From Triglochin maritima (taxonomy: Eukaryota; Streptophyta; Magnoliopsida; Alismatales; Juncaginaceae), in NCBI GenBank assembly GCA_963682175.1, contig OY821786.1, forward strand, positions 23,334,501 to 23,398,500: a stretch of 64,000 nt of DNA, given 5' to 3'. A program made the position numbers and the translations under genes. Shown here piece by piece: positions 2,474 through 42,122 of this stretch (its first letter is position 1; each line of letters opens with the position of its first letter). The notes beneath the pieces are model-generated. The model was not told the origin of the DNA, did not search any database, and saw only the letters and a program-made list of their open reading frames with translations.

Positions 2474-2487
2474 CCGCTTCATCGCGG
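2474..2487 (+). other. U5 hairpin of E1 (UUCAUC loop)
   Basis: CCGC-TTCATC-GCGG, about 35 nt before the LTR end. E2 has CCGC-TTCAAC-GCGG. E3 has GCGTC-TTCATC-GACGC in its right LTR: nearly the same loop on a different stem. The primer site starts about 40 nt downstream. Confidence 0.6.
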
Positions 2488-2528: not shown

Positions 2529-2546
2529 TGGCGCCGTTGCCGGGGA
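2529..2546 (+). other. E1 primer binding site (tRNA-Asp)
   Basis: TGGCGCCGTTGCCGGGGA is complementary to the 3' end of plant tRNA-Asp(GTC) over 18 nt. It starts 7 nt after the LTR terminus. E2 carries the same site; E3 has one mismatch. Confidence 0.9.
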
Positions 2547-3730
2547 GGTGCCAGTCCAGACTCTTGTTTGGACGATTCGAGTGGATTTAATTTGTGTGTT
2601 GTAGTTTTTATTTGTTTCAGGAGACTGGGAATAGCAAGTGGAGGCTACAGGAGAAATTTCCAGACGACCTGAGCACTTCAGACCACCAATCAGCGGTCTG
2701 GTGAGCTCTGTTCATCTTTTAATTTCTTGCTGTTGTTGCTCTAAATGATCTAGTTATCTGGGACTCAATTTGGTATGTTTTGACTTATAGTTCGTTCCCA
2801 GATCAATAATCAAACCTCCTTTAAGCAACTTGGACCCTAAAACTCAAAGCAAAAGACTAGGCATTCATTCTTGTTTAGGTCATGCACCATGTATGTGACT
2901 TAAGCATTTAGATTGTCTTTTATCTTAGCTTTATTTTCTGTTGCTGAGAGCTGGCGTGAGGTACGCACCTTCTACTCTCATTCATGCATTTCGTATGAAC
3001 ATGCATTAGTTAGTAGGAAGTGCATTGCAACAAGTGTGAGTTGAGCGTTTGTTTGGAGAGTTGATTGCTAGATTAGGACTCCAAAACGCTACTAAGGAGG
3101 GGCTGTCCCATAAAAGATAAGGTGGGGGATTTCATCACCCTTTCCTTCGCCCCACAAACCACACTAATAAAGAGCCTAATTTTTTAAATCAAGTAGACAT
3201 TGGCCTTAAGGATTTCGGGCCCATTAGGAGAGTGATCCGGTCCCGACCGTCATGACCTGATCGGCGTTGCCCACTTTGTCGCTAGTAGGAGAGACGAGAT
3301 CCCCGGATCTTGGCTCACTTGCTGGGCTTTGTGGTCCTCGTTGTAGGGAGGTGAGGCGTGTTGAGGCTGTGTGACCTCGCAGTTAGGCGTCGTCTAGCTG
3401 TAAGGACCTATAGCGACCTTAGGATTGCTTGAGCCTTGTTTGCTTGTGTGCTTCTACCTGTACCCATCCGCCGTAGCATAAGGACTTCTTCCCTTCTCTC
3501 CTGAGTCATTCTTTCTCTCCTGTGTTCTCTAGTCTTCTCTTCTACGTACATTCTTTGTTTGAAAAAAAAGAAGAAAAAAAAGGGTTTTTGTTTGTGTGCG
3601 TGCACCTTTGTGTATGCTTTCGTGGACACGAGACGAGAGTGGTCGTTTGACGAGGAGCGTTGTCAATCCGGCTTCGGTCATCGATTTCTCGACGCCTTCC
3701 TCCTCTCGTGTCGCACGTAGTTCGGGTCCA
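2547..3730 (+). other. E1 untranslated leader
   Basis: No gene. Contains one copy of the LTR palindrome (GACCACCAATCAGCGGTC, 2681-2698). A polypurine block near 3113-3140 (about AAAGATAAGGTGGGGGAT) is also found in E2 (about 26063-26090) and E3 (about 49094-49120). There is also a short A-rich run near 3560. Several other stretches are shared with the E2 and E3 leaders, so the leader is conserved although noncoding. Confidence 0.7.
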
Positions 3731-6720
3731 ATGGCTGCTAATTTCCGTGAGGAGGAGCAGTTGCTGGACCCGCCTGCTCTACCTGTTCTTCCAGTTGTCG
3801 TTCCCATACCTCTTCGTGATCGATGCTACCCGAGCCGTACCGCTCTACCCTCATGCATCGTATTACCAGAGGCTAATGGGAACCATTTTGAGGTTAAGCC
3901 TCAATTCATTTCCATGCTCCCTCGCTTCACTGGGAAAGGTGACCCCTATATCTTTCTCAGGGAATTTGAGGAGGTCTGTGCTATGTTCAAGCTGCAACAA
4001 CTTAGCACAGACTCCATCCATCTTAGGCTCGTTCCTTTTGCACTAAAGGATGACGCCAAGAAGTGGTTGTACAGAAACTAGGCGAATGCCTTTAGGACTT
4101 GGGATGAGTTTCAATCTGCATTCCTCAAGAAGTACTTCCCAAATCATCGCACTCAAAAATTGAGGAACGAAATCAATTCGTTCTATCAACATGAGACCGA
4201 ACCATTTCATGCATACTTAGAGAGGTTCAAGGAGCTACTATCCTCATGCCCTCACCATGGCATTGAGTTATGGCGCCTTTGTCAGATTGTGTACGAGGGT
4301 CTTCACATCCCGTCAAGAACGCTCCTTGAGTCCATGTGTCAAGGAGAGTTCTTGGGAAAGGATGAAAGGGATGCATGGGCTTTCCTAGAAGACCTTGCTG
4401 AGAAAACCATGCAATGGGAGAGTGTGAGGGAACCACCTGCATCGTCTAGTATAGGAGCGAGGATCGCGAATGCAAACTCGACTAGATCGGGTGCCGCATT
4501 TGCTATCGATACCACTACGGCCACCGAGGCACGCATGGCGGCCTTAATGCGCCGTATGGATTCGATTGAGCTCCAAAACCAACAAGGTGCACCTCACATG
4601 TCCACATCTGGTCCAGTTCCCTGTCATTCATGTGGTAGGGTAGGTCATGTAGAAAGCGAGCGTGTGTCTATTCCTTCTGAGATGGAGCGTGTCAACGCCA
4701 TCTATGACAGAGCTAGGAATGACCCATACTCATCATCTTATAATCCTGGATGGAGGAACCACCCCAATTTTTCATGGAACCAAACCAATGCCCCGGGTGG
4801 TCCTTCAAACTCCTCTAGACCACATTACCAATCACACCAACCTCCCATCCATGCACATTCCTATCAGCCATCCCAAGCGCAAACCACCAATCAATCGGTT
4901 TTCCCAAATTCCAATAATATGGAAACCCGATTCAATTCGCTTGAGACCTTGACTCGTGGACTTGAAAACTCAATGAAAAATTTATGTCAACCACGAGTCA
5001 AGTTCTCACTTCAAATCAGCAGACCATCAAATCTCTAGAGCTTCAGATGGGCCAATTGGCTCAGTCTGTACATGAAAGAGAGAGAGGGTAATTTCCTAGC
5101 CAGCCTGAGGCTAACCCCCGTGTGTACCAGCAACAACACATACAAAATGAGAATGTGGTACCTCGGGGGAGGCAAGTGAACCATGTGGAAGAACCTGTTC
5201 ACCATGTCAATGCCATTGTTACCTTAAGGAATGGAAAACAGGTTGACAATCACATTTCCTTGCCACACCCACCACCATCTATGCAGCCCCTCAGTGGGAA
5301 TGGTGGTGAAGAAGAGGCTGAGGGTGAGGGTAATACACCAAAGCTTTCTTCTCAGGCACCGCAGAAAACCTACCTGCCAAAAGCTCCCTATCCAAGTAGG
5401 TTAACAAAAAAGCAGAGTGACAACATGGACAAGATATTAGAGGTGTTTAAGCAAGTAAAGGTTAACATCCCCTTGTTGGATGTCATCCAACAAATACCTC
5501 AATATGCCAAAGTGTTGAAGGATCTCTGCACAACCAAGAGGAAGACCAATGTTCCTAAGAAAGCATTCTTGGCTGCAAATATCAGCTCACTTTTGTCCAA
5601 TCCCACCTACACAAAATACAAGGACCCTGGGTGTCCTACTATTCAGTGTACGATAGGGGACACTAGAATGAGCAATGTTTTGCTTGATTTAGGATCAGCG
5701 GTCAACCTCCTCCCATTCTCTGTTTATCAACAGTTGAACTTGGGAGAATTGAAACCAACTAAGATCACCCTCCAATTGGCGGATAGATCCATTCGTATTC
5801 CCATGGGGATTATCGAGGACGTGCTTATCAAAGTTGGAGATTTTATATTTCCAGTAGATTTTGTTGTCCTCGATACCAATCCTGTTGCGAACACCCACTC
5901 TCAAATACCTTTGATTTTGGGTAGACCATTTCTGGCCACCTCCAATGCCTTGATTAATTGTAGAAATGGTCTCATGAAGCTCTCATTGGGTAACATGAGT
6001 GCCGAGTTTCATGTGTTCAACTCTGGTAGGCAACATGAACCCATGGATGAACCTTTAAATCTAAATCTCATTCGCCAATTGGAGAAAGCACCACAAAATC
6101 AACGAACACCCCTAACCCCAATGCAATCCGTTGAGAATGTTCATGGGCCCACCGAAAACTCATTGCCTGTCTTCGCAGTGCAACAGAGTGAGCGGGCCTC
6201 GAACATAAATGTCCAAAGGGAGTGTTCGTTGCATGATTCAGTTGAGAGTACTAGTTAGAGTGAGACACCTCATCATATGCCTATACCAGAAGGTGTCTCT
6301 ACCTCATGTCCCATGGCCATTGAGCCATTTGAGCTTCTTATTGACTCCAACAAGGACAAACATATGACCGAGCTTATGCTTGATGATCTAAATGATGGTG
6401 GGAGGTCCTTGTTGGATGACTTGGGGAGAAGCCCCATTCTTAGTGATGCAGGTCTGCTGCATCCATCGAATGAGCTTGAGGAACTCATTCCGATGCACCC
6501 ACCTATTGGTTGGAGGGTTTTGTTCGATGAGCAACTAAACCCTAGTGAGGCAACACAACTTCATTCTTTGTTGCCCACACCCAACCAATATCATGAGGGG
6601 TTCGAGCCTTTCAGCTTTGACCTTTCACCCCTCATTACACCTCAGAGTACCAGTGAAGTTTGCCCATCTCGGCAAGTCTCTGGTCCTCATGACTTGATGT
6701 TCTCATTTGATGTTCCTTGA
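3731..6720 (+). pseudogene. gag: E1 Gag-protease-CTD polyprotein, broken
   Basis: The ATG at 3731 (MAANFREEE) is the best start; an ATG at 3614 in the same frame is possible. The capsid region (Retrotrans_gag type) runs to about 4470. A zinc knuckle lies at 4622-4663 (CX2CX4H, but Arg replaces the last Cys). A linker and a glutamine/leucine-rich coil follow. An aspartic protease follows at about 5650-5960, with DLGS in place of D(S/T)G and ILGRPFLATS near its end. A C-terminal region contains PIGWRV near 6504. Disruptions: TAG at 4079, a frameshift near 4985, TAA near 5090 and TAG at 6256. After that last stop the same frame runs to 6720, so the ancestor was one polyprotein. No pol follows. 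Gag packages element RNA in cytoplasmic particles; the function of the CTD is unknown. Confidence 0.85.
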
Positions 6721-6996
6721 CCAAATGATTATGAGAATATCGTCGTTGCTGTACATATCATGCAAAAAAAAAGAAAAAAAGACTCCTTCAGTGAGCATTG
6801 ATTGTTGTGGGCCCCAACCCTTGTGTAATTGGGCCTAATTTCTTCACGTATTTATCTCCCTTCTTCAGCTTCTCACAGGTTTTGAGGGAAGTTGGGTTTG
6901 TGTCCATCAACATGACCCTGAACGTCCCTTTGTACTTCATGTTGGTGAGATCTTTCCTTTTTCATGCATATATCCATGTAGTATCTTGTTTACATT

Positions 6997-7034
6997 CATT
7001 GAGGACAATGCATGAAGTAGGTGTGGGGGGTGTT
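6997..7034 (+). promoter_or_regulatory. Central PPT-like block in E1
   Basis: CATTGAGGACAATGCATGAA followed by GTAGGTGTGGGGGGTGTTT, about 1.25 kb upstream of the real PPT. The block recurs in E2 (23706-23748) and E3 (42012-42052) directly after the coding region. Similar GAGGACAATG...GTGTGGGGG blocks are familiar in Athila/Tat-type gypsy elements. A role as second plus-strand primer is an inference. Confidence 0.6.
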
Positions 7035-8109
7035 TTACGTGTGTACATAGTCGAGTCTTTTTCTTTTGATTTTGTTTTCTTTTTGTGTGTATTGTTAGGG
7101 TCATGCTAGTGTGCTGCATTTAACATTGATATATCTGCTTGCCATGATCCTTGGGCGACTTGTCTTCTTTTGCTTGCCTAGTGCTTTAAAATTTTCACAT
7201 TTCTTTCAAAATCTTCATGTGTTTGCGAAAGAAAATGTTTTGTGGGTTTTGTGTGTGTTAAGCATGTGCAAAACCGTTGAGAGGCAAAGTAAAAAGAAAG
7301 CTCCCAAAATTGTCTTGAACTTGATGCATTAGGATGTCTAGTTTACTGGCTTTAGGTCTTATCGAGTCGTTAGGATGCACCCCGGTTTTCCCTCGGGGGG
7401 CGTGTAATCATAGGGTTTCAGCACTCAAACATTTAAAGAAGTCCACCCTGAACCTAGTGAGTCAAATAATTCGTGTCTGTTAGTATAAGGAAGTTTGTCG
7501 TAGTCAAGGGCCCTTAATCTCTTTTTGTGAAACTTAAGTGTAGGGGTTTTGGTTCCCATGTAGATAAATGAATAAGTGGTGTTCTCTCTTCTCGCACGGC
7601 TCCTATCACTCGGGAAAGTAGGTCTGAGGGGCCTTTGTGCCTGGTGCTTTCGAGTCATCTGACTTGGGATGCACCGACCGAACTCCCGTTTCACGGGTGG
7701 TAGGGATCGCCCTATGTGGAGATTTGGGGGAAGGTATACGTGATAGTGTAAGTCCTCATGGGCAATGATGCACGAAACCTGACCCTGGGAGAATCAAGCA
7801 CCGACCAATAAACTGCTCCAAAGAAAAAAAAGAAAAAAAGAAGAAAAAAAGGGTCAAATAAGAACCAAAATAGACTTTACACCTTGTATCACATTCAGAA
7901 GTTAAGGTTGCCCATGTCTTTCACTTAAGTCCTTAACTAATTTTCACGAATAACTCATTTGGCTAGGTGTGTGGACCGATTACATATATAGAGTCGGCCC
8001 GTAGGATTACCGCGTCCCATGATCAACAAAATAAGTCCGACGAGTCGTGTAGCTAGATTTATTAATGCATCTTGTTCGGATTTTGTGGGTATATCCGCTG
8101 AAAACCCTC

Positions 8110-8177
8110 AGGAGACAACACTCCTCCTCCTTGGCGACAAGGAGGTTTAACGGCTTGTTGCACGTGCTAAGTGCAAC
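8110..8177 (+). ncRNA. Three-hairpin RNA module A-B-C in E1
   Basis: Hairpin A is AGGAG-ACAACA-CTCCT (8110-8125). B abuts it directly: CCTCCTTG, loop GCGA, CAAGGAGG (8126-8145), a GNRA tetraloop. After 11 nt comes C: GTTGCAC-GTGCTAA-GTGCAAC (8157-8177). The module lies 100 nt upstream of the 3' LTR, so it is part of the genomic RNA. E2 and E3 carry it with identical stem, loop and spacer lengths. It is a cis RNA structure, not a separate gene. Confidence 0.7.
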
Positions 8178-8260
8178 CGTGATTCCTACGAAAGTGAGTT
8201 AGGATTTCTTGTTTTTCGTATGCTGTTCTCTTTCTTTGTTTTGCTCGGGACTAGCAAAAG

Positions 8261-8277
8261 TTAGGTGTTGGGGTATT
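8261..8277 (+). other. E1 polypurine tract
   Basis: TTAGGTGTTGGGGTATT abuts the 3' LTR (TGATTGACATC). The flanking CTAGCAAAA...TTAGGTGT...GGGGTATT is shared with E2 and E3. E1 has GTTGGGG where the others have GTGGGGG. Confidence 0.75.
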
Positions 8278-9687
8278 TGATTGACATCATTTCATGCTTA
8301 TATTTGTATCTTATATCCATTATCTTTCACCTAAACAATGCTATGTCACGAGTTTTATGTTTAGTTTTCAGGAATAAATAGGTTTGAAGAGATGAAGCAT
8401 AGAAGGACCCAAAAGCTGGGAAAAACGACTGAATTGTGAGATCTGGGGACCAAGATGCAAGGAAGAAGGACCTGAACGCAAGACAGAGGGACCTAAGAGC
8501 AAAACAGAATACTTCACACCATCATGGGGAGTATTTTAGCAATTGGATTCGGGTCGGAGCTCCAATAAACGAAGTAGATGCATCTAAGACCACCAAATAC
8601 ACTAAGCAAAGCCCAGCACAAATTTCAGATGGATCCGGACATTTTAGACCGCTAATTGGCGGTCCAAGACCGCTAATTGGCGGTCACTTTTGGGCCAAAT
8701 CGTCTTAGATTTCTCTGGGTTACGTATTAGTATGTATTTAGTCCATTTCTGGTATTTGTTTAGTCCCACATCGGGGGATTGTCCCGATTTGCCTTTTTCC
8801 ATGGCTATAAATAGAACTCTTCACCTTCCATTGTAATCACTCCATATTTTGAGTGGCTATTCTTCCTACTAGAAGTGAGGCCTTGAAGCACACACTAAAG
8901 TAGTAGGATGCTACTTGAAATGTGAGTCATTTTATCAATAAAGTTTTGTGTTTCTTTCATTGTTTGTTTATGCTTCTTTTATTGTTTGTGCATGTTTTAG
9001 TTTAATCGTCTTTTACTTCTAGCTTAGTTTTAATATGCTTTCTTTGCTTAGTTTAATAATTAGTGTAATGTTTAGTGAGTAGTTCTATCCCCTTTGGGGG
9101 GTGGAGTAGATGTACATACATGCATTAGAGAATGGGATGAATGCTTTATTTTTGATGTGGTTATCAAACATGAATGTATGCTTGCTTGTTTAGGATGGAA
9201 TTTATAACTTGATGAGTTTTGCCAAAATGATTAGACACCTCTCATGCTTGTTTAGGTTCTGAAATAAACAACTTGCATATGTAAATGTTAATCAACTAAG
9301 TTGGTGAATAGATTGATAGGTTTTGCCATAACATTTAGACACTTCCTATGCTTGATAAACACCACCTTCATGTGCTTAAAGAATGTATTCTACACCCACC
9401 TCATTGCATGTGTGCACTCACTCCACCCCTTGGGTTTTCCCATTTCTGTATTCCAGCATTCTTCCTTTGCTCTTAGCTTACTTATTATTTCATTGTTTGG
9501 TTCTTCCTTTCGCATTTCCTACTTCGTAGCGTAGTATAGAGTAGAGTAGCATAAACAACTTTCTCCCCCTATTTTTTCCACTTGATTTCATACAAGCAAG
9601 AGGCTGCTCACCTCCCTGAGGACGACCCGTACTTGCCACCGCTTCATCGCGGCCGTGCACTTGCGGTTTTAATTAAAACGTTCAACA
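8278..9687 (+). repeat. E1 3' LTR (1410 bp)
   Basis: Begins TGATTGACATC and ends TTCAACA, with TG...CA termini. It is homologous to the E2 LTRs over most of its length, so E1 and E2 are subfamilies of one LTR family. It carries twin palindromes (8647-8685), TATA (8816-8823) and the conserved U5 end. LINE-1 resumes directly at 9688. Confidence 0.9.
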
Positions 9688-20907: not shown

Positions 20908-22450
20908 TGATTGATCGTTTTATATTTAACCGCAAGTGCACGGCCGCGTTGAAGCGGTGGCAAATACGGGTCGTCCACTGGGAGGTGTGTCGACACTTGG
21001 TTTGTGCGAAGGCGAGAGGTAAAGAAAGGGAAGAAAGGTTGGTTACACTAAACTACACTAAAACGCAAATGGAAATGGAAAAGAAGCAAGAAAACTAAAC
21101 CCCAAAGGGGGTAGAGAAATAATGTGAACATAAAGAAGTGTGTGTGTGTGTTCCTTAAGCTCTTCACAACATGTAGTGCATGAAATCATAAAACTACATC
21201 CAACTTTCCCTCCACATGAATTAAGATTTCACTACATCATTAAAACATACAAGACAATAGTTGGAATGAAGCTACATGAACTCTAGTATAAAGACTAGAC
21301 CCTACTATGCCTCCACATGAATTAAGATAAGACTACATCATTAAAACATACAAGACATTAGCTAAGGTAAAGGCAACAAGAGCTCATACACTACAACTTG
21401 TGTTTCCAATATTAACTTCATCCATATCCTAACCTTATCATTCCCCATAAAATAGGTCTACTAATCAAAGCATAAGCTAAGCTTCATTCAAGAGCATTAG
21501 CATATCAAAGATAAGAGTGGAGACCCATTAGATGGTTATGGAAATCATATAAAGCTCAAGGGATAAAAATAACACACACTTAATACACTACATAATTATA
21601 TCACATATTTCTCCACCCCCCAAATGGGGATGGAACTACTCACTACTCATTACACTACTGATTAGACTAAGTAAAGAAAACATTTAACTAAGATACTAAA
21701 ATTACTAAACAAGAAATTAAACAAAGTAAAGCAACCCACACAAAACAAGCAACATAACAAGACAAGATTAAAAGAAACAAATAAACTTTTATTAACAATG
21801 ACTCACATTGAAGGTAGCATTCTTCTCCACCTTGAGTTATTGCTTCAAGGCTCACTCCTTAGTAGAGAGAATGCCACCAAACAATGGGTAATTACAATGG
21901 AAGGTGAAGAGTTCTATTTATAGGCATGGAAAAAGCTAATCCGGGACAATCACCCGATGTGGGACTAAACCAATACCAAAAATAGCCTAAACGAACATTA
22001 ATACAAGTCCAGGAGAAATTTGGGCGGATCCTGAGTGATATGGACCGCCAATTAGCGGTCCAAGACTGCCAATTGGCGGTCCAAAATCGTCGGATCGTGT
22101 TGGAATTTGTTGTGGGCTTTGCTTTCTGGTATTGTTGGTCTTTGATGCGGTTACTTGACTTGTTGGAGCTCCGACCCGAATAGAATTGGTAAAATACTCC
22201 CCATGATGGTGTGGAGTATTCTGTTTTGCTCTTAGGTCCTTCTGTCTTACATTCAGGTCCTTCTCCCTTGCATCTTGGTCCCTAGATCTCACAATTCAGT
22301 CCTTTTTCCCAGCTTTTGGGTCCTTTTATGCTTCATCTCTTCAAACCTATTTATTCCTGAAAACTAAACATAAAACTCGTCACGTAGCATTGCTTAGGTG
22401 TAAGATAATAGATATAAGGTACAAATATAAGCATGAAATGATGTCAATCA
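20908..22450 (-). repeat. E2 3' LTR (1543 bp)
   Basis: Termini in minus sense are TGATTGACATC...CGATCAATCA. It carries twin palindromes at 22043-22060 and 22064-22081, TATA at 21915-21922 (minus) and a (GT)n run near 21139. The GT run is slightly longer than in the other LTR. Confidence 0.9.
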
Positions 22451-22551
22451 AATACCCCCACACCTAAGTTTTTGCTAGTCTCGAGCAAAACAAAGAAAGA
22501 GAAAAACAAACGAGAAACAAGAAATCCTAACTCACTTTCGTTGGAATCACG

Positions 22552-22619
22552 GTTGCACTTAGCACGTGCAACAAGCCGTTAAACCTCCTTGTTGCCAAGG
22601 AGGAGGAGTGTTGTCTCCT
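22552..22619 (-). ncRNA. Three-hairpin RNA module A-B-C in E2
   Basis: In sense orientation: A AGGAG-ACAACA-CTCCT (22619-22604); B CCTCCTTG, loop GCAA, CAAGGAGG (22603-22584); an 11-nt spacer; C GTTGCAC-GTGCTAA-GTGCAAC (22572-22552). Against E1 only the tetraloop differs (GCAA for GCGA), and it stays GNRA. The LTR begins 101 nt further on. Confidence 0.7.
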
Positions 22620-23705
22620 AAGGGTTTTCAGAGGATATACCCACAAAATCCGAACAAGATGCATTATTCAATCTAGACCTCGACTCGTTGGACAAATGTT
22701 GTCGATCAATGGACGTTGTAATGCTACGGGCCGACTCTATATAAGTGATCAGTCCACACCTAACCTAATGAACAATTCGTGCAGGTTAAATAAGGAATTA
22801 AGTGAAAGACATGGACAACCTCAACATCCTCAAGTGATACAAAGTGTAAGGTCCATTAAGGTTCTTATTTGCATTACCATATTTTTTTTTCTTTTTGTTT
22901 TTTTTTTCTTTTCCCATTTTTTTTTCTTTTCATTAGTTGGAGCTTAATTCTCCCAGGGTCAGGTTTCGTGCATCATTGCCCATGAGGACTTACACTATCA
23001 CGTACACCTTTCCCCACATCTCCACATAGGGCAATCCCTACCACCCGTGTAACGGGAGTTCGGTCGGCGCATCCCAAGTCAGATGACTCGAAAGCACCAG
23101 GCACAAAGTCCCCTCAGACCTACTTCCCCGAGTGATAGGAGCTGTGCGAGAAGAGAAAACACCTACTCACTTATTTCTTATCTACACATGAACCAAAACC
23201 CCTACACTTATGTCTCACAACAAGATTTAAAGGGTCCTTGACTACAACAAACTTCCTTAAGTTAACAGACACGAATTATTGACTCACTAGGTTCAGGGAG
23301 GACTTCTTTAAATGTTTGAGCACTGAAACCCTATGATTACTCACCCCCAAAGGAAAACTGGGGTGCATCCTAACGACTCGATAAATCCTAAAGCCACAGT
23401 ACTAGATATCCTAATGCATCAAGTTCAAGACAATTTTGGGAGCTTTCTTTTTACTTTGCCTCTCAACAGTTTTGCACATGCTAAACACACGCAAAACCCA
23501 CAAAACATTATCTTTCGCAAACACGTGAAGATTTTGAAAGAAATGTGAAAAATTTGAAGCACTAGGCAAGCAAAAGAAGACAAGTCACCCAAGGATCATG
23601 GCAAGCAGATATATCGATATTAAATGCAGCACACTATCATGACCCTAACAATGCAAACAAAAGAAAACAAAATCACAGGAAAAAGACTCAACTATGTACA
23701 CACGT

Positions 23706-24067: not shown

Positions 24068-25561
24068 TCAATGCACTTGGAAAGGGAACATGACACCACG
24101 CGGGGCCAGAATACGCATGCGTGGGCCCCCTTCACAAAGAGCACCAGATGAAATGAGAGGTTCATGAATTGGACGCAAAGGCGTCTCACTCAAAGGATCA
24201 AACTGAAAGAGCTTGAACCTCTCAAGAGTTTGGGAAATAAGGGGCAACGGAAGAAAAATATCTCCCGTTGCGGAACTGAAGTTATGATCATCAATCCAAA
24301 CTCTCCAACCAACAGGCTGGTGGGTCGGAACGAGGTCAAGCACCTCGTTATGCAAGTCCAACTCACTAGGAGAACAGGAAGTGGGTCTCATACCCAAAGT
24401 ATCCTCCAAGGAACTCCTAATACCCTCATGAGCAATGTAGTTGTTTGATGTTCCATCATTTCCAAGATGATCAGGAACAATAGTGAGAGGCAAACTCTCA
24501 TCAGGTTGTTTGAAATTGAGGGTACTAGGGAGCTCTTGCTCCACGAGAGGTGAGTCCTTAAGAGGCACAATATGAAGATCATGTGGCTGAAGGGCCACGG
24601 GACAAAAAGATAAGGCACAATCCTGTGCCGACTCATAATGAGGCTGGTCCAAGTTATTCTCAATTTGAATCGAATCCTCCACTAAGTGATCGTGAATTGA
24701 AACCCCAAGTCCCTCAGACTGACTAGGAGTTTGACTTTGAAAGATTGTGCTTTGAATTTGTGGATGTGGTGGTGGTTCGATATCAAAAGATGAATCCTCA
24801 TGTTGACAAGAAAAGTTACCCTCCTCACGTTCAAGGAATTGTTGTGTCATCTGGCTCACTTGCATTTCCATGGTTTGCAAGGAATTCAAGTTGGACTTCA
24901 ATAAATTTTGTGTGGTTTCCATGAATGTTTGGAGAGTTTGTTTCAAGGAATCAGGTATGCGGTCAACGATGGGGTCCAAGTCAGAGCTTGGGAAATTTTG
25001 GGGTTGGGTGTTGATGGGCTGAGAATGAGTCCAATGATTTGGAGTGGGGTGCTGGTAGAATTCTGGGTATTCGGGAGGAGGATACTGGGGTGAATATGAA
25101 GTATAAGAATTTGAATAAGAATTGTTTCCCCACGAATCCATCACTCTCGGGATGTACGCGGATGCGTAATGGTCATATTGAGCATTTTGGGAAAATGTAT
25201 GCTCATACTCAGGCTCTAGGGGAACATAAGGACATTCCCCGATATTATGACCACTCAACCGACAACAATCGCACGGTATGGCTACTGGAGCCACTGGTGC
25301 ACTCATGTCATCTACCGCATGCATGAAAGAGGCCAAAGTTTGTTGCCCAGAGTATGATCCAACATAACTAGATGGAGATCTAGCCGTCGGTGCCTCTCTC
25401 ATATCACCCCTATATGAAGTTTGCTCAGTCACATAATGAAGATCATCCCAACCGTACGGGGTATTCGTCTGAGCCACCCCAGGTTGCATGGGTCCGGAAT
25501 ACCAGGGAGAATCATCCTGGTCCCAACAATGATATGAATGGTCGCCCATGTAACCATCCAT
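24068..25561 (-). CDS. E2 reduced Gag: nucleocapsid-coil-CTD protein, 497 aa
   Basis: Intact frame from ATG at 25561 (MDGYMGDH) to 24068. It has no match to a capsid or protease region. Residues 1-95 are acidic/aromatic and unrecognised. A CX2CX4HX4C knuckle (CDCCRLSGHNIGEC) lies at about residues 97-110. Next is a Tyr/Pro/Ser/Asn-rich linker resembling the one after the E1 knuckle, and a probable coiled coil near 205-255 ending QTMEMQVSQMTQQFLEREEG, matching the E1 segment with SLELQMGQLAQ. A long acidic stretch and a C-terminal region with QPVGWRV (near 24300) correspond to the E1 CTD. It looks like a Gag polyprotein that lost capsid and protease but kept RNA-binding and CTD parts. Its function is unknown; it may bind element RNA and associate with a partner Gag. 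Confidence 0.8.
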   Translation of the reverse strand: MDGYMGDHSYHCWDQDDSPWYSGPMQPGVAQTNTPYGWDDLHYVTEQTSYRGDMREAPTARSPSSYVGSYSGQQTLASFMHAVDDMSAPVAPVAIPCDCCRLSGHNIGECPYVPLEPEYEHTFSQNAQYDHYASAYIPRVMDSWGNNSYSNSYTSYSPQYPPPEYPEFYQHPTPNHWTHSQPINTQPQNFPSSDLDPIVDRIPDSLKQTLQTFMETTQNLLKSNLNSLQTMEMQVSQMTQQFLEREEGNFSCQHEDSSFDIEPPPHPQIQSTIFQSQTPSQSEGLGVSIHDHLVEDSIQIENNLDQPHYESAQDCALSFCPVALQPHDLHIVPLKDSPLVEQELPSTLNFKQPDESLPLTIVPDHLGNDGTSNNYIAHEGIRSSLEDTLGMRPTSCSPSELDLHNEVLDLVPTHQPVGWRVWIDDHNFSSATGDIFLPLPLISQTLERFKLFQFDPLSETPLRPIHEPLISSGALCEGGPRMRILAPRGVMFPFQVH

Positions 25562-26672
25562 CTCAACAAACAACTCTCGAGTCGACCACTCTCTCCACCA
25601 CGAGACTAAGCTCGCAAAAAGTGCTCGACTCGACCCTAAAACGCTACCAGAGAGTGTAAAGGGGAGGAGACTATAACGTAGAAGAAGGTGAGAAGAAGAT
25701 GACTCAGAGGAGAAGGGAAGAATCCCTAGAGCTAGCGAGGGTACAGGGTGAAGGTAGAAGCCTAACTAGCAAGCATGGCTCAAACAATGTAAGGCAATGG
25801 GTCCTTAGGCTAGACGACGCCTAACTTCGAGGTCACTAGCCTCGACACGCCTCACCTCCCTACAACGAGGACCACAATGCCCAGCAAGTGATACCAAATC
25901 CGGAGATCCAGTACCTCCTACTATCGACAAGGTAGGCAACGCCGATCAGGTCATGGCGGTCTCAACTAGATTACTCTCCTAGTGCGTCCAAAATCCTAGG
26001 GCCAATGTCTACTTGCTTTTAGTTAAGGCTTTACTTGAGTGTGCTTTTGGGGGCTAAGGCAGGGGTGATGAAATCCCCCACCTTATCTTTGAAGACTATA
26101 GGTGATGCCCCTTAAAGATGTTTTGAAATCTTAGGCTAGCAAGCAACTCACCAAACAAGCACTCACCTCACTCTTGTTTCGATGCAAACCTTACTCACTA
26201 ATGAATGTCCTAATGCGTGAATGAGTGATAAGGAATGCGTACCTCGCTCCAGCAATCAACGACAAAATGTAAAGCAAAGAAAAGAAAGATGCATGCAAGG
26301 TCTACATATGATGCATGAGCTAGATGACAAAGAGTCTAATCTTTTGCTTTGAGTTTTATGGTCCAAGTTGATTAAAGGGGGAGTGATTAATGATCTGGGA
26401 GCAAACACAAAGTCTCAGCATGCAAAATTGGACTCCCAGATAACACCAATTACAGAAATAACTACCACAAAAAATTTAAAAGTAGGACACCCTTACCAGG
26501 CCGCCAATTGGCGGTCTCCAACTGCTGATTGGCGGTCCTTTTGTGGTTTCTCTTCCTCAAACTTCTTCAGTAGCCTCCCCTTGATGTGCTAGTTCCCTGA
26601 AACTAAGAAACACTGGACACAAAAAATCAAAAACTCCTCGAATCGTCCAAACCAAGGTCTGGATAGACCACC
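25562..26672 (-). other. E2 untranslated leader
   Basis: No gene. Carries palindrome copies at 26499-26516 (GGCCGCCAATTGGCGGTC) and 26520-26537, and the conserved purine block at about 26063-26090. The first 100 nt after the primer site align with the E1 leader. Confidence 0.7.
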
Positions 26673-33720: not shown

Positions 33721-36700
33721 CAAGGAGGATAGTCATGGAGAGAAGGAGAGAGGGTATTAAAGAGAAGGACAAAAGGAGAAAACGAGAGAGAAGGAGATGG
33801 AGAAGGCTAGGGGTAAAGAAGGAGAAAGAGAGAGAGGGATCAGGAGAAGGATAGAAGGATATGTAGAGGGTTAGAAGGAGTGAAGAAGCAGAGAGAGAAG
33901 CAGAAGGAGAAGGAAAAGACTAGGAGAAAAAGGAGAGAGAGGGAGTGAAGGAGAAGGAGATTGAGAGAAATGGAGGAGAGATGGATAGAGGAGGGAGAGA
34001 GGGAAGGAGGAGAAGGAGAGGTAGAGGGGAGACAAAGAAGTGAGAGAGAGGAGGAGGGAGAGAAGAAAGAGAACATGATGGAGAAGGGGAGAGAGAGCGA
34101 TAGAGAGTGTGGATGAAAGAGAAGGAAATTTGGAAACAATGGGAGTAGGAGCAAGATGAGACACCGAGATGGAGAGAGAGGGCTAGAAGGATAAGGGGAG
34201 AGGTGGACAGAGGGGGAGAGAGTGAGAAGGGAAAGGGAGAGAGGAGAGATGGAGAAAGAGAAGTAGAGAGAACCTTAGAGAATGTGAGAGAGGGAGTTGG
34301 GGAGAGATAAGGAGGGAGTGAAATGGAGAAGGACAAAGTGAATTATAACGAGACAAAGAGAGAGGAGAGAGAGGAGTCCTTGATTTAAATAAAAGGAGAG
34401 AGAGAAAGAGAAGGATAGAAGAAGAAGTAAAGAGAGGGAGGAGAGGGAGAGGGAGAAAGAGTGAGAGAAGGGGAGAGAGAGTCAATAAGTGAACTAGATG
34501 GAGAAATACAAAGAGAAGGAGAGAGAGAAGGAAGAGGAGACTGGAAGGGTAGAAGAAGGAGAGAAGGAAAGAGAGAAGGAGAAGGAGAAGGAGAAGTAGA
34601 GACCAGTGGTAAGAAGAGAGAGAAATATAGAGGAGAGAGAAGGGAGAGAGAGAGAGAGAGAGAAAGAAGGAAAGAGCGAAGGGGAAAGGAGGTGAAGGGG
34701 AAAAAGACAGAGATGGAGAGACAAAGAGTGGAGAGACAGAAGAGAATGAGAGGACTGAGAGAGAGTGAAGGTGACAGAGGGGAAAAGAAGAGGGAGGAGG
34801 AGAGAGGTGAGAGAGACGAGGAAGAGAAGGAGGGAGAAGAATGAGAGAGAAGAAGGAGAACAAGAGAAAGGACAAGGAGAGACAGAAGGAGAACGAGAGA
34901 GAGAAAAGGAGAAGGGGAGAGTGGAGAGAAGATGAGGAGAGAGGGAAGGACAAGCGGAGCAAGAGGGTAGGAGACCGAGAAGGAGTGAGAGGGAAGAGGG
35001 GAGAGATAGAGAAAGAGGAGAGAGAGAAGAAGGAGACGGAGAGCAAGAGAGTAAGAAAGAGTGAGAGAGGTGGGGAGAGAAGAAAAAGTAGAGAGAAGTA
35101 GAGGGAGATGGAAGAAGGATGGAGGGAGAGAGAGAAAGAGCAGAGATGAGATGGAGAAAGAGCGAGAGATGCAAGAGGAGAAGGAGAGAGAGAAGGAGAA
35201 GGCAAGTGAGAGAGAGATAGAGAGACAAGAAGATGAGAGACATGGAGAAGGAAAAAGGGGAAAGAGGAGAGGGATTGAAGTAGAGCAGAATGAGAGAGAG
35301 GGAAGGAGATTGAAGACGAAGAGTTATGGATAAGAAGAGAGAAAATAGAAGGGAGGAGAGAATCAGAGAGAGGAGTGTGAAGGAGAAAGAGTGAAGAACA
35401 AGGTGGAGGGATAAAGAATGAGAGAAGGAAAGAGAAGGAGAGAGGGGAGAGAAGGAATGAGAAGGAGAAAGGGGAGAGAAGGACAACAACAGAGGAAGAA
35501 GGAGAAGAGAAGAAAGATAAGGAGAGAGGGGGAGATATGAGAGAGAAGGAGAGGGAGAAGGACTGAGAAAAGGAGAAGGAGGTCAGGGAAGGAGAAAGAG
35601 ACGGAGAAGGTGGAAAGAGAGAGGAAGAGAGTGAACGAGAAGGGAGAGAGAGGAGAATGAGACAAAGAGCGAGAGAGAGATCGAAACGGATAGAGAATAG
35701 GAGAGTTGAGAGAAAGAGAAGTACAAATAGAAAGAATGGTACAAGGAGAGATAGTGAAGAAGAGAGACAAGAGAAGGAGAGAGAGAAAGAGAAGCAGGAG
35801 GAGGGGGAGGGAGAGAGAAGTAGGATAGTGAAGGAGAGAAGGAGAGAGAGTACTAAAGAGAAGGACAAAAGGAGAAAAAGAAAAGAAAAGGAAAGGAGAT
35901 GGAGAAGTCAAGGGGTAAAGAGGAGAAAGAAAGAGAGGGATAAAGAGAATGAGAGAACGAGAGATAAGGAGATGAAGAGGGCTAGAAAGAGTGAAGAAGA
36001 AGTGAGAAGGAGAAGGAGAAGGAAAAATACAAGAAGAAAAAGGAGAGAGGAGAAGTAGAGAGAGGGAGTGAAGGAGGAGCAGATGGAGAGAGGTGGAGAG
36101 AAAAGCAGGAGAGATCGACAGAGGAGGGAGAGAGGGAAGGAGGAGACAGAGAGGGAGAGGGAGAGGGGAGAGAGAAGGAGGGAGAGAAGAAAGAGAAGGT
36201 GAAGGAGAAGGACAAGGGGGAGAGAGAGATGGAGAGTGTAGGACGAAAGAGAAGGAAATTGGGAAACAACGGGAGAAGGAAAAAGACAAGAAGAAAAAGG
36301 AGAGAGCAGAAGGAGAGAGAGGGAGTGGAGGAGAAGGAGATGGAGAGAAATTGAGGAGAGATCGACAGAGGAGGGAGAGAGGGAAGGAGGAGAAGGAGAG
36401 GGAGAGGGGAGAGAGAGGTGAGGGAGAGAAGAAAGAGAAGGTGATGGAGAAGGAGAAGGGGAGAGAGACAGATGAAGAGTGTAGGACGAAAGAGAAGGAA
36501 ATTGGGAAACAATGGGAGAGGGAGCAAGATAAGAGACGAAGATGGAGAGAGAGAGCTAGAACGAGAAGGAGCGAGGGGAGAGGGGGACAGAGGGTGAGAG
36601 AGTGAGAAGGGAAAGGGAGAGAGGTGAGATGGAGAAAGAGAAGTAGAGAGAACCATAGACAATGAGAGAGGGAGATGGAGAGAGATAAGGAGGGAGTGAA

Positions 36701-39195
36701 ATAGAGAAGGAGAGTGTGAATTAGAATGAGAAGAAGAGAGAGGAGTCCTCGATTTAAAGAAAGGAGAGAGAGAAAGAGAAGGAGAGAAGAAGAAGTAAAG
36801 AAAGGGACGAGAGGGAGAGGGAGAAATAGTGAGAGAAGGGGAGAGAGAGTCGATAAGTGAACTAGATGGAGAAATACAAGGGGAAGGAGAGAGAGAAGGA
36901 AGTGGAGAATGGAAGGGTAGGAGAAGGAGAGAGAAGGGGAGAGAGAGAAAGACAGAAGGAGAAAGGAGGAGAAAGGGAAAAAGAGAGAGATGGAGAGACA
37001 AAGAGAGAGGAGAGGGATAGAGAAGAAGAACGGGAGTAGTAAGAGAGACTAAAGGTGACAAAGAGGAAAAGAGGAGGGAGGAGGAGAGAGGTGGGAGAGA
37101 GTGAAGGTGACGGAGAGGAAAAGAAGAGGGGGAGGAGGGGAGAGAGGTGAGAGAGAGAAGGAGAGAGAGGAGGAAGAGAAGGAGGAAGAGAAGGAGAGAG
37201 AATGAGAGAAAGGAGGAAGAGAATGAGGGAGAAGATGGAGAGAGAAGAAGGAGATGAGAAGGAGAACAAGAGAGACGACAAGGAGAGAGAAGGAGAATGA
37301 TAGAGAGAAAAGGAGAAGGGGTTAGTGGAGAGAAGATGAGGAGAGAGGGAAGGAAAATGGGAGCCAGAGGGTAGGAGACCGAGAAGGAGTCAGAGTGGAA
37401 GAGGGGAGAGATAGAGAATGAGGAGAGAGAAGTAAAGAGAGAGAGAGAAGAAGGAGACAGAGACCAAGAGAGTAAGAAAGAGTGAGAGAGGAGGGGAGAT
37501 TGAGAAGGAAAAGTACAGAAAAGTAGAGGGAGATGGAGGAGGGAAGGAGGGAGAGAGAGAAAGAGCAGAGATGGTATGGAGATAGAGTGAGAGATGCAAG
37601 AGGAGAAGGAGAGAGAGAAGGAGAAGGCAAGTGAGAGTGAGGGAGAGAGAAGAAGATAAGAGAGATGGAGAAGGAAAAATGGGAAAGAGGAGAGGGATTG
37701 AAGTAGACGAGAAGGAGAGAGAGGGAAGGTGATTGAAGACGAGGAGTGAAGGATAAGGAGAGAGAAGATAAAAGGGAGGAGAGAATCAGAGAGAGGAGTG
37801 TGAAGGAGAGAGGGTGAAGAACAAGGAGAAGGAGGGAGAGAGAATGAGAGAAGGAAAGAGAAGGAGAGAGGGGAGAGAAGGAATGAGAAGAAGACAGGGG
37901 AGAGAAGGAAGGATAACAACAGAGGAAGAAGTAGAGGGAGAAGAGAGAGAAAGAGAAGGAGAGAGGGGGAGATATGAGAGGGAAGGATATGGATAAGGAC
38001 TAAGAAAAGGAGAAGGAGGGACAGGGAAGGAGAAAGAGACGGAGAAGGTGGAAAGAGAGATGGAGGAGAGAGGAAGAGAGTGAATGAGATGGGAGAGAGA
38101 GGAGAATGAGACAGAGAGCGAGAGAGAGAGATCGAAATGGATAGAGAGGAGGAGAGTTGAGAGAAAGAGAAGTTGAAATAGAAAGAATGGTATAAGGAGA
38201 GATAGTGAAGAAGAGTGACAAGAGATGGAGAGAGAGAAAGAGAAGGAGGAGGAGGAGGAGGAGGAGGAGGAGGGAGAGGGAGAGGGAGAGAGAAGTGGAT
38301 TGTGAAGGAGAGAGAGTACTAAAGAGAAGGACAAAGGGATAAAAAAGAGAGAAGGAGATGGAGAAGGTGAGAGGTAGAGAAGGAGAAAGAAAGAGAGGGA
38401 TAAGGAGAAGGAGAGAATGAGAGAGAAGGAGATGAGAGGGTTAGAAAGAGTGAAGAAGCAAAGAGAGAAGGAGAAGGAAAAGGAAAAAGACAAGAGGAGA
38501 AAGGAGAGAGAGCGAGTGAAGGAGATGGAGAGAAATGGGGGGGAGATCGACAGAGGAGGGATAGAGGAAAGGAGGAGAAGGAGAGGGAGAGGGGAGAGAG
38601 AGATGGAGAGTGAGCGAAAGAGAAGGAAACTGGGAAACAAGGGGAGAGGGAGCAAGATGAGAGACGGAGACGGAGAGCGAGACGTAGAAGGAGAAGGAGA
38701 GAGGGTAGACGTGGACAGAGGGGGAGAGAGTGAGAAAGGAGAGAGAGAGAGGAGAGATAGAGAAAGAGAAGTATAGAGAACCATAGAGAATGGGAGAGAG
38801 GCATATGGAGACAGATGATGGAGTGAAATGGAGAAGGAGAGAGTGAATTAGAACGAGACGAAGAGAGAGGGGAGAGAGGAGTCCTCGATTTAAAGAAAAG
38901 GAGAGAGAGAAAGAGAAGGAGAGAAGAAGAAGTAAGGAGTGGGAGGAGAGGGAGAGGGAGAAAGAGTGAGAGAAGGGGAGAGAGTCCGTAAGTGAGATAG
39001 ATGGAGAAATACAAGGAGAAGGAAGAGGAGTCTGGAAGGGTAGGAGAAGGAGAGAAGGAAAGAGAGAGGGAGAAGGAGAAGTAGAGACCAGTGGTAAGAA
39101 GAGAGACATAGAGAGAAGGAGAGAGAAGGGGGAGAGAGAGAAATAGAGAAGGAATAAGGAAGAGGAGAATCTAGTATTAGGAAGGAGAGAGAAGC
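33721..39195. repeat. 5.5-kb polypurine satellite with ~2.13-kb higher-order repeat
   Basis: The plus strand is almost pure A/G (GAGA, GGAGAAGG words). Non-purine landmarks recur. GAAGGAAATTTGGAAACAAT-like words lie at 34121, 36251, 36493 and 38622, giving spacings of 2130, 242 and 2129. GAGTCCT(T/C)GATTTAAA lies at 34374, 36743 and 38879. About 2.5 units are present, and a local duplication of about 242 bp separates two of them. Long open frames on both strands are composition artefacts. Confidence 0.9.
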
Positions 39196-41034: not shown

Positions 41035-41131
41035 AATACCCCCACACCTAGATTTTGCTAGTCCCTAGCAAAACAAAATATAAGAGCAAATGAAAACAGG
41101 GAAATCCTAACTCACTTTCGTAGGAATCACG

Positions 41132-41199
41132 GTTGCACTTAGCATGTGCAACAAGCCTTTAAACCCCTGAGTTACCTTAGAGGACGAGTTTTGTCTCGT
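41132..41199 (-). ncRNA. Three-hairpin RNA module A-B-C in E3, with covarying stems
   Basis: In sense: A ACGAG-ACAAAA-CTCGT (41199-41184), a G-C to C-G swap relative to E1; B CCTCTAAG, loop GTAA, CTCAGGGG (41183-41164), with two compensated pairs, one wobble and one mismatch, and still a GNRA loop; an 11-nt spacer; C GTTGCAC-ATGCTAA-GTGCAAC (41152-41132). All lengths are identical to E1 and E2. Confidence 0.7.
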
Positions 41200-42011
41200 G
41201 AGGGTTTTCAGTTGACACACCCACAAAGTCTTAATTTAATATTTCATTAATAACTCTCAATATCTCCACCTCAACCTTATATATCTCACTTAGAATTCTT
41301 GCATGCTCATTATATAAATCTAACTCATAAAAATCTGACTTGGTCTTTGTTCCTCCAACACTCACACCACTAGCCCTTCTACACATGTCATCACTTAAAT
41401 TAATTTGCACGCCTCCTCTGGTGGTGAAGTATCATTCGGATCAACCATGACATGGATCATTCTTTTAGCTTTGGGCCTTGAGTATCTTAAAGTATATTTT
41501 TTTCCGTAATTCAACACATTTGCTTTTTTTGACACTTTTACCCTTTTTGCATTCGTGTAGCGAGTTTGGTCGATAATCCCGAGCTGGCAGACTCAAGTTA
41601 CTAGGTTTCAAGATACCCCTACGGACCAGTGACTCGAAGGTTTGGGTTTTGTAATCATTTTGCAAAATGTGCTTTCCTCACTTTATTCCTTTATTATTTT
41701 TTTACTTTTATTTTCCTCAAGGCTTAATTGCTATTAGAAGTCCACACTTCCCGGTATATTTTCCTCAACCTATGCTTTTTATCAACCACTTCAAAGATTT
41801 GATTCATCCAATTTAAGTGCATACACGTCTTAAAGGGTAATGGGTTATTTCTTTGGAACTTTAGATTTATGTCATAGTTTCTACAAGCAGAACTATATAA
41901 TAAGGAACAAAAACTCAATGCAATTTGTACACGGGTTTTGGTAGTTCAATCTTAAGATATGTCATGAAACATTGATTTTTTTTAACAAACAGAATATATA
42001 GACAGATAGAT

Positions 42012-42052
42012 AAACACCCCCCCACACCTAAATCATGCATTGTCCTCAATGT
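42012..42052 (-). promoter_or_regulatory. Central PPT-like block in E3
   Basis: Sense CATTGAGGACAATGCATGAT followed by TTAGGTGTGGGGGGGTGTTT, about 1 kb before the PPT. Confidence 0.6.
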
Positions 42053-42122
42053 ATGCAAAGATAAAGCAAATGCACTTATTACCTGAGTCAACTTGCGGTA
42101 GAGGGATTGAATTTGCTCAGAG

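Follow-up and report, generated by a model that had tools for sequence, protein, structure and literature searches.

A conserved 3' RNA domain in pol-less LTR retrotransposons of Triglochin maritima and its possible role as an RNA identity signal

Pol-less LTR elements in the window

The stretch of DNA considered here, referred to as the window, spans 64,000 nt of Triglochin maritima (OY821786.1:23,334,501-23,398,500, forward strand, assembly GCA_963682175.1) and harbors three LTR retrotransposon insertions called E1, E2 and E3. Their LTRs have TG...CA ends (one LTR of E3 has a GA end), and the LTR pairs are 97-99% identical in a self-comparison of the window. Target duplications of 5 bp surround E2 (ATGAG) and E3 (ATTAG); the 5' LTR of E1 is truncated, i.e., its first part is absent, and a search for a target duplication around this element found none. 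The ORFs and the sites found at the 5' end and in the center of E1, together with the ORF of E2, are the following:

2474..2487, + strand: U5 hairpin at the end of the E1 5' LTR, CCGC/GCGG with loop TTCATC (pattern, alignment)
2529..2546, + strand: primer-binding site (PBS) of E1, of a type common to E2 and E3 (sequence)
3596..6720, + strand: ORF pieces of E1 (ORF list and Pfam scan)
4160-5038, + strand: gag piece of E1 (Pfam)
5122-6258, + strand: protease (PR) piece of E1 (Pfam)
6277-6720, + strand: further ORF of E1, 147 aa (ORF list)
6989..7049, + strand: PPT-like block in the center of E1, including a hairpin, CATTG AGGA CAATG, at 6997-7010 (blastn)
24068-25573, - strand: ORF of E2, 501 aa, with a knuckle-like stretch (ORF list)

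A Pfam scan of the ORFs identified gag (PF03732) and protease (PF13650) in both E1 and E3; neither the E1 segment at 3596-4081 nor the 501-aa ORF of E2 had a Pfam match. The E2 ORF is weakly similar to two proteins, i.e., the Gag of E3, in the zinc-knuckle region, and the product of the last ORF of E1 (30% over 148 positions); the latter suggests that E1 and E2 have a common C-terminal part. Among the six E1-E3 ORFs that were scanned, a set that leaves aside the 4.2-kb gap between gag and PR of E3, there was no match to RT, RNase H or integrase. Between PR and the 3' LTR, E1 has 2.0 kb, which include a single ORF of 147 aa, and E3 has 1.4 kb; the E2 ORF is flanked by 1.1 and 1.6 kb. There is little space for pol, and E1, E2 and E3 are non-autonomous, pol-less LTR elements. 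The sole RT match among eight window ORFs scanned sits in a Ty1/copia element at 13003-33526, which has RVT_2, a copia-type gag and LTRs at 13.0 and 33.1 kb with matching stretches that are 97.9% identical; E2 lies between these LTRs.

E1-E3 are probably of the Athila/Tat type (Ty3/gypsy), and their PBS is presumably complementary to tRNA-Asp. Such a PBS is usual in Athila-type elements, and the PBS type of Athila4/Calypso elements is that of E1-E3. The window contains no tRNA gene.

The three-hairpin module and its surrounding domain

The preliminary description had drawn attention to three hairpins, A, B and C, of fixed dimensions upstream of the 3' LTR in each element. The claimed hairpin lengths, the abutting of A and B and the 11-nt spacing that precedes C were reproduced in the 68-nt modules of E1 (8110-8177, +), E2 (22619-22552, -) and E3 (41199-41132, -), and the distance to the 3' LTR, given as 97-101 nt, is 100, 101 and 97 nt, respectively. 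The loop of hairpin B is GNRA in all three elements, as had been noted (GCGA in E1, GCAA in E2 and GTAA in E3). The stems are fully kept in E1 and E2, but hairpin B of E3 has one A.C mismatch, which leaves 19 of 20 pairs. The module and the segments around it are:

8078..8277, + strand: conserved 3' RNA domain of E1, from stem S1 to the PPT, reaching the 3' LTR (blastn)
8078..8096, + strand: possible stem S1, GGAT/ATCC; the E3 type lacks the outer pair (alignment, tree; suggestive)
8110..8125, + strand: hairpin A of E1, 5 bp, 6-nt loop (geometry, covariation, tree)
8126..8145, + strand: hairpin B of E1, 8 bp, GNRA tetraloop (geometry, permutation test, tree)
8146..8156, + strand: linker, 11 nt, with 91% identity of E1-type to E3-type copies (alignment)
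8157..8177, + strand: hairpin C of E1, 7 bp, 7-nt loop, nearly invariant in sequence (alignment, genome pattern)
8178..8208, + strand: nearly invariant 31-nt tail with a possible stem D, 8184-8188 with 8200-8204 (alignment)
8239..8259, + strand: hairpin E, PPT-proximal, 7 bp, 7-nt loop (alignment, tree)
8260..8277, + strand: 3' PPT region of E1, the G run of which is unlike that of most copies (alignment)
22451..22651, - strand: conserved 3' domain of E2, module at 22552-22619 (blastn)
41035..41231, - strand: conserved 3' domain of E3, module at 41132-41199 (blastn)

On both strands of the window, the 20-pair geometry with at most one mismatch occurs at just three places, i.e., the modules of E1, E2 and E3. 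Relative to 200 dinucleotide shuffles, the fold z-scores of these modules are -3.62, -3.78 and -2.27, respectively, and larger stretches fold moderately better than shuffles (z -1.94 for 8082-8219 and -1.13 for 41104-41227). The module in the three elements exceeds chance, and the original observation is confirmed. In agreement with the claim that it is non-coding, the module lies outside the long + strand frames, and + strand coding of the E1 block was rejected because stops are found in all three + frames. A search with Rfam gave no match at the gathering score in the window, on which ground a catalytic RNA, or a member of any Rfam family, was rejected; the sole match at 7900-8400 was BsrC, at chance level (E 4.3) and on the opposite strand.

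An RNA module kept in divergent pol-less elements is thus what remains of the preliminary description, but the module is not self-contained and belongs to a longer domain. In the self-comparison of the window, about 200 nt up to the 3' LTR are 84% identical between E1 and E3 (blastn, E 1e-8); the other E1/E3 alignments comprise the LTR end with the PBS, the gag and protease pieces and a 48-nt central PPT-like block. Outside the coding regions, E1/E2 and E3 have in common by blastn only the U5/PBS junction, the central PPT-like block and the approximately 200 nt before the 3' LTR. Sensitive blastn against 14 of 90 loci, picked to cover the types, placed the conserved unit of E1 at about 8055-8281, i.e., beyond the limits of the module. 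The E1 block is 80-89% identical to the 14 loci and aligns over the whole of 8055/8060-8281 in 13 of them; the remaining one, L086, matches from 8112 onward only. The U5 end aligned in 13/14 loci and the central block in 10/14 (with a longer central match of 187-333 nt in 5 of these 10), and neither the immediate flanks nor the LTR U3 aligned to E1 in the 14 loci. Recent common descent alone, the objection raised in the preliminary description, was rejected as an explanation on account of a block that is 80-89% identical beside unalignable flanks and U3, and of compensatory changes that exceed those of controls (see below).

The degree of conservation differs along the domain, as seen from a comparison of 10 E1-type with 14 E3-type rows (12 mixed rows were omitted). 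Sequence to the left of the block is 33% identical. From there on, the values are 58% (S1 part), 80% (hairpin A), 60% (hairpin B), 91% (linker), 94% (hairpin C), 99% (31-nt tail), 48% (spacer), 93% (hairpin E), 83% (PPT) and 52% (start of the LTR). Hairpin B is the most changed part of the module, with its pairing largely kept.

Hairpin E, with the stem TTTTGCT/AGCAAAA, is found 4-5 nt upstream of the GGTGTGGGGG run; one row is compensated and the outermost pair is broken in 8/36. The outer pair of S1 is broken in 13/35 rows, and a GGGT within S1 could pair with ACCC at 8104-8107. In stem D, three pairs are invariant and two are only broken in some rows. RNAalifold pairs the loop of hairpin E with sequence after the tail, which would form a pseudoknot, and pairs ACCCTC upstream of hairpin A with the PPT. 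For the pseudoknot, a single U-A to G-C exchange is seen between clades, without a same-branch compensatory event in the tree; the ACCC x PPT helix is nearly constant. Both predicted contacts are no more than suggestive.

The U5 hairpin was readable at the 3' LTR end of 67/90 loci, where it is fully paired in 55, has one mismatch in 11 and two in 1; most E3-like copies have the stem CGTC/GACG instead of CCGC/GCGG. Its loop is mostly TTCATN, followed by a conserved GTGCACTTGCGG stretch. At the central PPT, a PPT-like G run and a preceding hairpin are kept between families (6997-7029 in E1, 42012-42059 in E3), and a search with a pattern that required GGACAA yielded 61 matches to this hairpin in the 90 loci, in 22 variants. 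Within the window, the combination of hairpin C and the tail, as well as the 20-pair geometry, is absent from the central PPTs and occurs only before 3' LTRs.

The domain is abundant. A pattern for hairpin C and the tail (33 places, at most 3 mismatches) has 22,138 matches in the 1.063-Gb host genome (11,079 forward, 11,059 reverse), the same pattern read backward has none, and a pattern for hairpin B and the linker (35 places, exact) has 12,823 genome matches and 0 in the control. The similarity searches, in which 40/110 candidates for E1 and 40/1,294 for E3 were scored, give no family sizes. A carrier with pol was not found by inspection of ORFs in the 1.5 kb upstream of the loci, for which the three longest ORFs per cluster were considered (the two large clusters, with 54 and 30 loci, have 66 and 23 ORFs that reach 90 aa). 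At L091, an 8.9-kb stretch has no ORF of at least 140 aa on the element strand and no PBS match. No relatives were detected in viral-contig, genome-contig and plasmid collections; the data cover one plant genome. Three loci (L061, L079 and L090) are mosaic, i.e., parts of their 3' block or central region match different families, which points to recombination among families.

Tests of pairing in the hairpins

The preliminary description had called for a check of covariation, which was made using our own counts and an RNAalifold run. The module withstood this check: hairpins A and B display compensation; hairpin C is nearly invariant. The alignment used (A1) contains 36 distinct rows, i.e., E1, E2 and 34 loci, with one row per distinct module among the 90 loci. 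In A1, 96.6% of the 716 cells in the A, B and C stems are paired, compared to 32.5-50.2% for slid structures, and four pairs are changed on both sides. The cells changed on both sides number 48 versus 24.4 +- 3.3 in shuffles, a value that 0/500 shuffles reach; neither the number of pairs changed on both sides (481/500 shuffles at least as high) nor the pair-type count (298/500) is above that of shuffles.

Because two clades dominate A1, three further controls were made. The arms of hairpin B were permuted among the first 100 listed copies, which comprise 21 haplotypes and 16 arm combinations: 118/128 pairs form, compared to a permutation mean of 106.2, and 48 of 100,000 permutations reached the observed value. 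Among these 100 copies, 54 B stems are perfect, 45 have one mismatch and 1 has two, and mismatches are present in three of the six commonest haplotypes, i.e., an exact stem is not essential since 46/100 are mismatched. The loop is GNRA in 99/100, where the G and the final A were fixed by the search pattern. The second control concerned confounding by clade. Among the variable columns, 633 pairs were considered; standard pairs make up at least 70% in 99 of these and at least 90% in 29 (the four most variable A/B pairs have 97, 89, 74 and 100%). A single covarying pair therefore means little, and because many unrelated variable columns pair as well, the loop-E pseudoknot, S1 and the ACCC x PPT helix were downgraded.

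Changes were also placed on a FastTree tree of 35 rows, calculated without the helix columns and with L086 omitted. All four same-branch double changes in A/B/C are compensatory (1 in A, 3 at one B pair), compared to 5/77 at 1032 control column pairs (Fisher 7.6e-5). With S1 and hairpin E added, 7/8 double changes are compensatory (Fisher 1.2e-6). At B pairs 3, 5 and 6, the tree has 7, 12 and 8 one-side changes, respectively, and no same-branch double change; the haplotypes at these pairs pass via G.U, C.A or U.U. Hairpin C varies at one pair alone (2 wobbles and 2 broken among 36 rows), and because it hardly varies, covariation does not test its pairing. As families recombine, some of the common changes are not independent. 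A three-sequence simulation of E1 versus E3, made with two pools, gave P values of 0.0009 and 0.004 for at least 19 pairs together with at least 3 compensations; when the positions of the changes were kept constant, the outcome was not unusual (0.26 for at least 19 pairs, 0.36 for at least 3 compensations).

For hairpins A and B, compensation exceeds both the phylogenetic and the permutation controls, and the module is a structurally constrained RNA. Judged from its sequence, it appears to be a structurally selected, cis-acting RNA that forms part of the longer domain. A feature at the level of DNA, such as a regulatory palindrome, or an incidental, functionless patch spread by recombination between families would agree with the mosaic nature of the families (L061, L090) and with hairpin C, which is a perfect inverted repeat kept in sequence as well as in pairing. 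However, the sequences of A and B change with pairing and GNRA loops largely kept, and the borders of the block hardly differ among 13/14 loci, where the LTR U3 is unaligned, which makes such an origin improbable.

Candidate functions and known systems

To our knowledge, hardly anything is known about how RNAs of plant LTR retrotransposons are selected for particles and how pol-less elements borrow from a partner. A compact, genome-wide domain with separable parts, i.e., hairpins A and B putatively read as a shape, hairpin C and the tail putatively read as sequence, and a hairpin at the PPT, makes both questions testable. The preliminary description had envisaged a signal for packaging, export, dimerization or templating, to be recognized by Gag or by the machinery of a partner. 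We propose that the genomic RNA of these pol-less elements of the Ty3/gypsy type contains a cis-acting domain with the module as its core, and that machinery common to these families would recognize this 3' domain in trans. Hairpins A and B would act as a shape, free in sequence except for the retained GNRA loop, and hairpin C with the 31-nt tail would be recognized by sequence. Recognition would most likely be by Gag (or Gag-Pol) from an autonomous partner, in which case A-B-C and the tail would constitute a putative 3' packaging signal for the partner's particle; hairpin E near the PPT and the similar hairpin near the central PPT may help to define plus-strand primers. Reading of a cis-acting domain in trans by shared machinery, with packaging by the partner Gag as its putative purpose, is the best explanation found, and we assign to it a probability of roughly 0.4.

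The argument for recognition in trans is based on the different fates of protein and RNA. Gag is 51% identical over 206 residues between E1 and E3 and 32% over 76 residues between E2 and E3 (the protease is less diverged, 75%), and beside these diverged Gags the block is kept at 84% together with the U5 end, the PBS and the PPTs, i.e., with sites that a shared partner would have to recognize on foreign RNAs. It speaks against packaging that a signal read by the element's own Gag would be expected to diverge with that Gag. The central PPTs of the window are without A-B-C and the tail, which are therefore presumably not needed for use of a PPT as such, and packaging is preferred for this reason. 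The wider reading, according to which the domain is a 3' RNA identity signal, the first in plant Ty3/gypsy elements, where a shape-plus-sequence module beside the PPT would mark the RNAs of many pol-less families for one shared partner, is more tentative than the packaging proposal itself. If true, an identity signal would explain copy numbers in the tens of thousands despite diverged Gags and LTRs.

A host factor that binds the domain and exports unspliced RNA from the nucleus would also explain why one conserved block is found beside diverged Gags, and the location of the domain, downstream of the last gene and ahead of the 3' LTR, is consistent with such a role. In that case the domain would act in the manner of the constitutive transport elements of some animal retroviruses, which are structured RNAs found upstream of the 3' LTR. 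They resemble the 3' domain in these two respects, and a comparison made via Rfam only gave no match. Against export stands that the open-access literature, searched without naming export, yielded no plant example, and we consider this function unlikely. Far less probable is a contact between the module and the U5/PBS leader that would aid circularization or strand transfer. The U5 end has its own covarying hairpin, and the predicted duplexes are better than those with mononucleotide-shuffled leaders for E1 (0/60 as low) and E2 (1/60), but not for E3, where 16/60 shuffled leaders pair as well; on the basis of this difference, pairing between the module and the leader was rejected.

Among known systems, TR-GAG and other non-autonomous LTR elements bear gag, as do E1 and E3. 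TR-GAG-like elements are presumably moved by a partner. A structured 3' RNA domain in common is not mentioned in the portions of the TR-GAG literature available to us. The preliminary description knew of no equivalent to the module, and none was found in Rfam or in the open PMC literature, a search that left subscription papers aside.

A further parallel concerns the PPT. Sireviruses (Ty1/copia) have an inverted repeat at the PPT/3' LTR junction and extra PPTs, as described in the available part of PMC2829016, and, like E1-E3, they are plant LTR retrotransposons that conserve a non-coding structure at the PPT. Candidate inverted repeats that link the left PPT edge with the LTR about 60 nt farther on are also present in two of the elements, i.e., 8252-8267 with 8328-8343 in E1 (16 nt, 75% complementary) and 22460-22468 with 22393-22401 in E2 (9 nt, perfect); none of that kind is found in E3. 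In the Sirevirus repeat, according to the same portion of PMC2829016, one arm is located upstream of the PPT and the other within the LTR, whereas the stems A-E are all upstream and come with a conserved tail; moreover, Sireviruses are Ty1/copia elements and E1-E3 are of the Ty3/gypsy type, with E3 devoid of the PPT/LTR repeat.

As proposed for the Sirevirus PPT, the whole domain could shape the RNA around the PPT for a correctly placed cut by the partner's RNase H, i.e., serve plus-strand priming. The conserved block reaches the PPT/LTR junction, hairpin E is separated from the GGTGTGGGGG run that follows it by 4-5 nt, the central PPT likewise has a hairpin in front of it, RNAalifold permits pairing of the sequence before hairpin A with the PPT, and the inverted repeats of E1 and E2 resemble the Sirevirus arrangement as far as it is given in the available text of PMC2829016. 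However, some 55-155 nt separate A, B, C and the tail from the PPT, the window's central PPTs are without them, the ACCC x PPT helix is too constant to give covariation, and E3 lacks the PPT/LTR inverted repeat. Priming as the role of the entire domain has, in our view, a rather small chance of being correct.

An extra PPT is also found in the Athila4/Calypso lineage (Wright and Voytas 2002, as cited in the available part of PMC2829016), i.e., like E1-E3 these are plant Ty3/gypsy elements with a second PPT; in the portions of the literature at hand there is no account of this RNA domain in that lineage, and E1-E3 are without pol. Diaspora, a soybean Ty3/gypsy element of the Athila/Calypso group, has 128 bp from the pol stop to the PPT (available part of PMC1142308); it carries gag-pol, whereas E1-E3 are pol-less, and the words hairpin and stem-loop are absent from that text. 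Retrozymes are plant LTR elements that are likewise non-autonomous and have a conserved, structured RNA; according to the accessible part of PMC4918200, they carry hammerhead ribozymes. Rfam found none in the window, which sets E1-E3 apart from retrozymes.

The window also contains, at 33759-39100, a long GA-rich array in which imperfect repeats are numerous. It has long open frames, of which the longest is on the - strand. At one locus (L068), a K/R/E-rich open frame of 228 residues, possibly similar to this array, is found upstream of the module.
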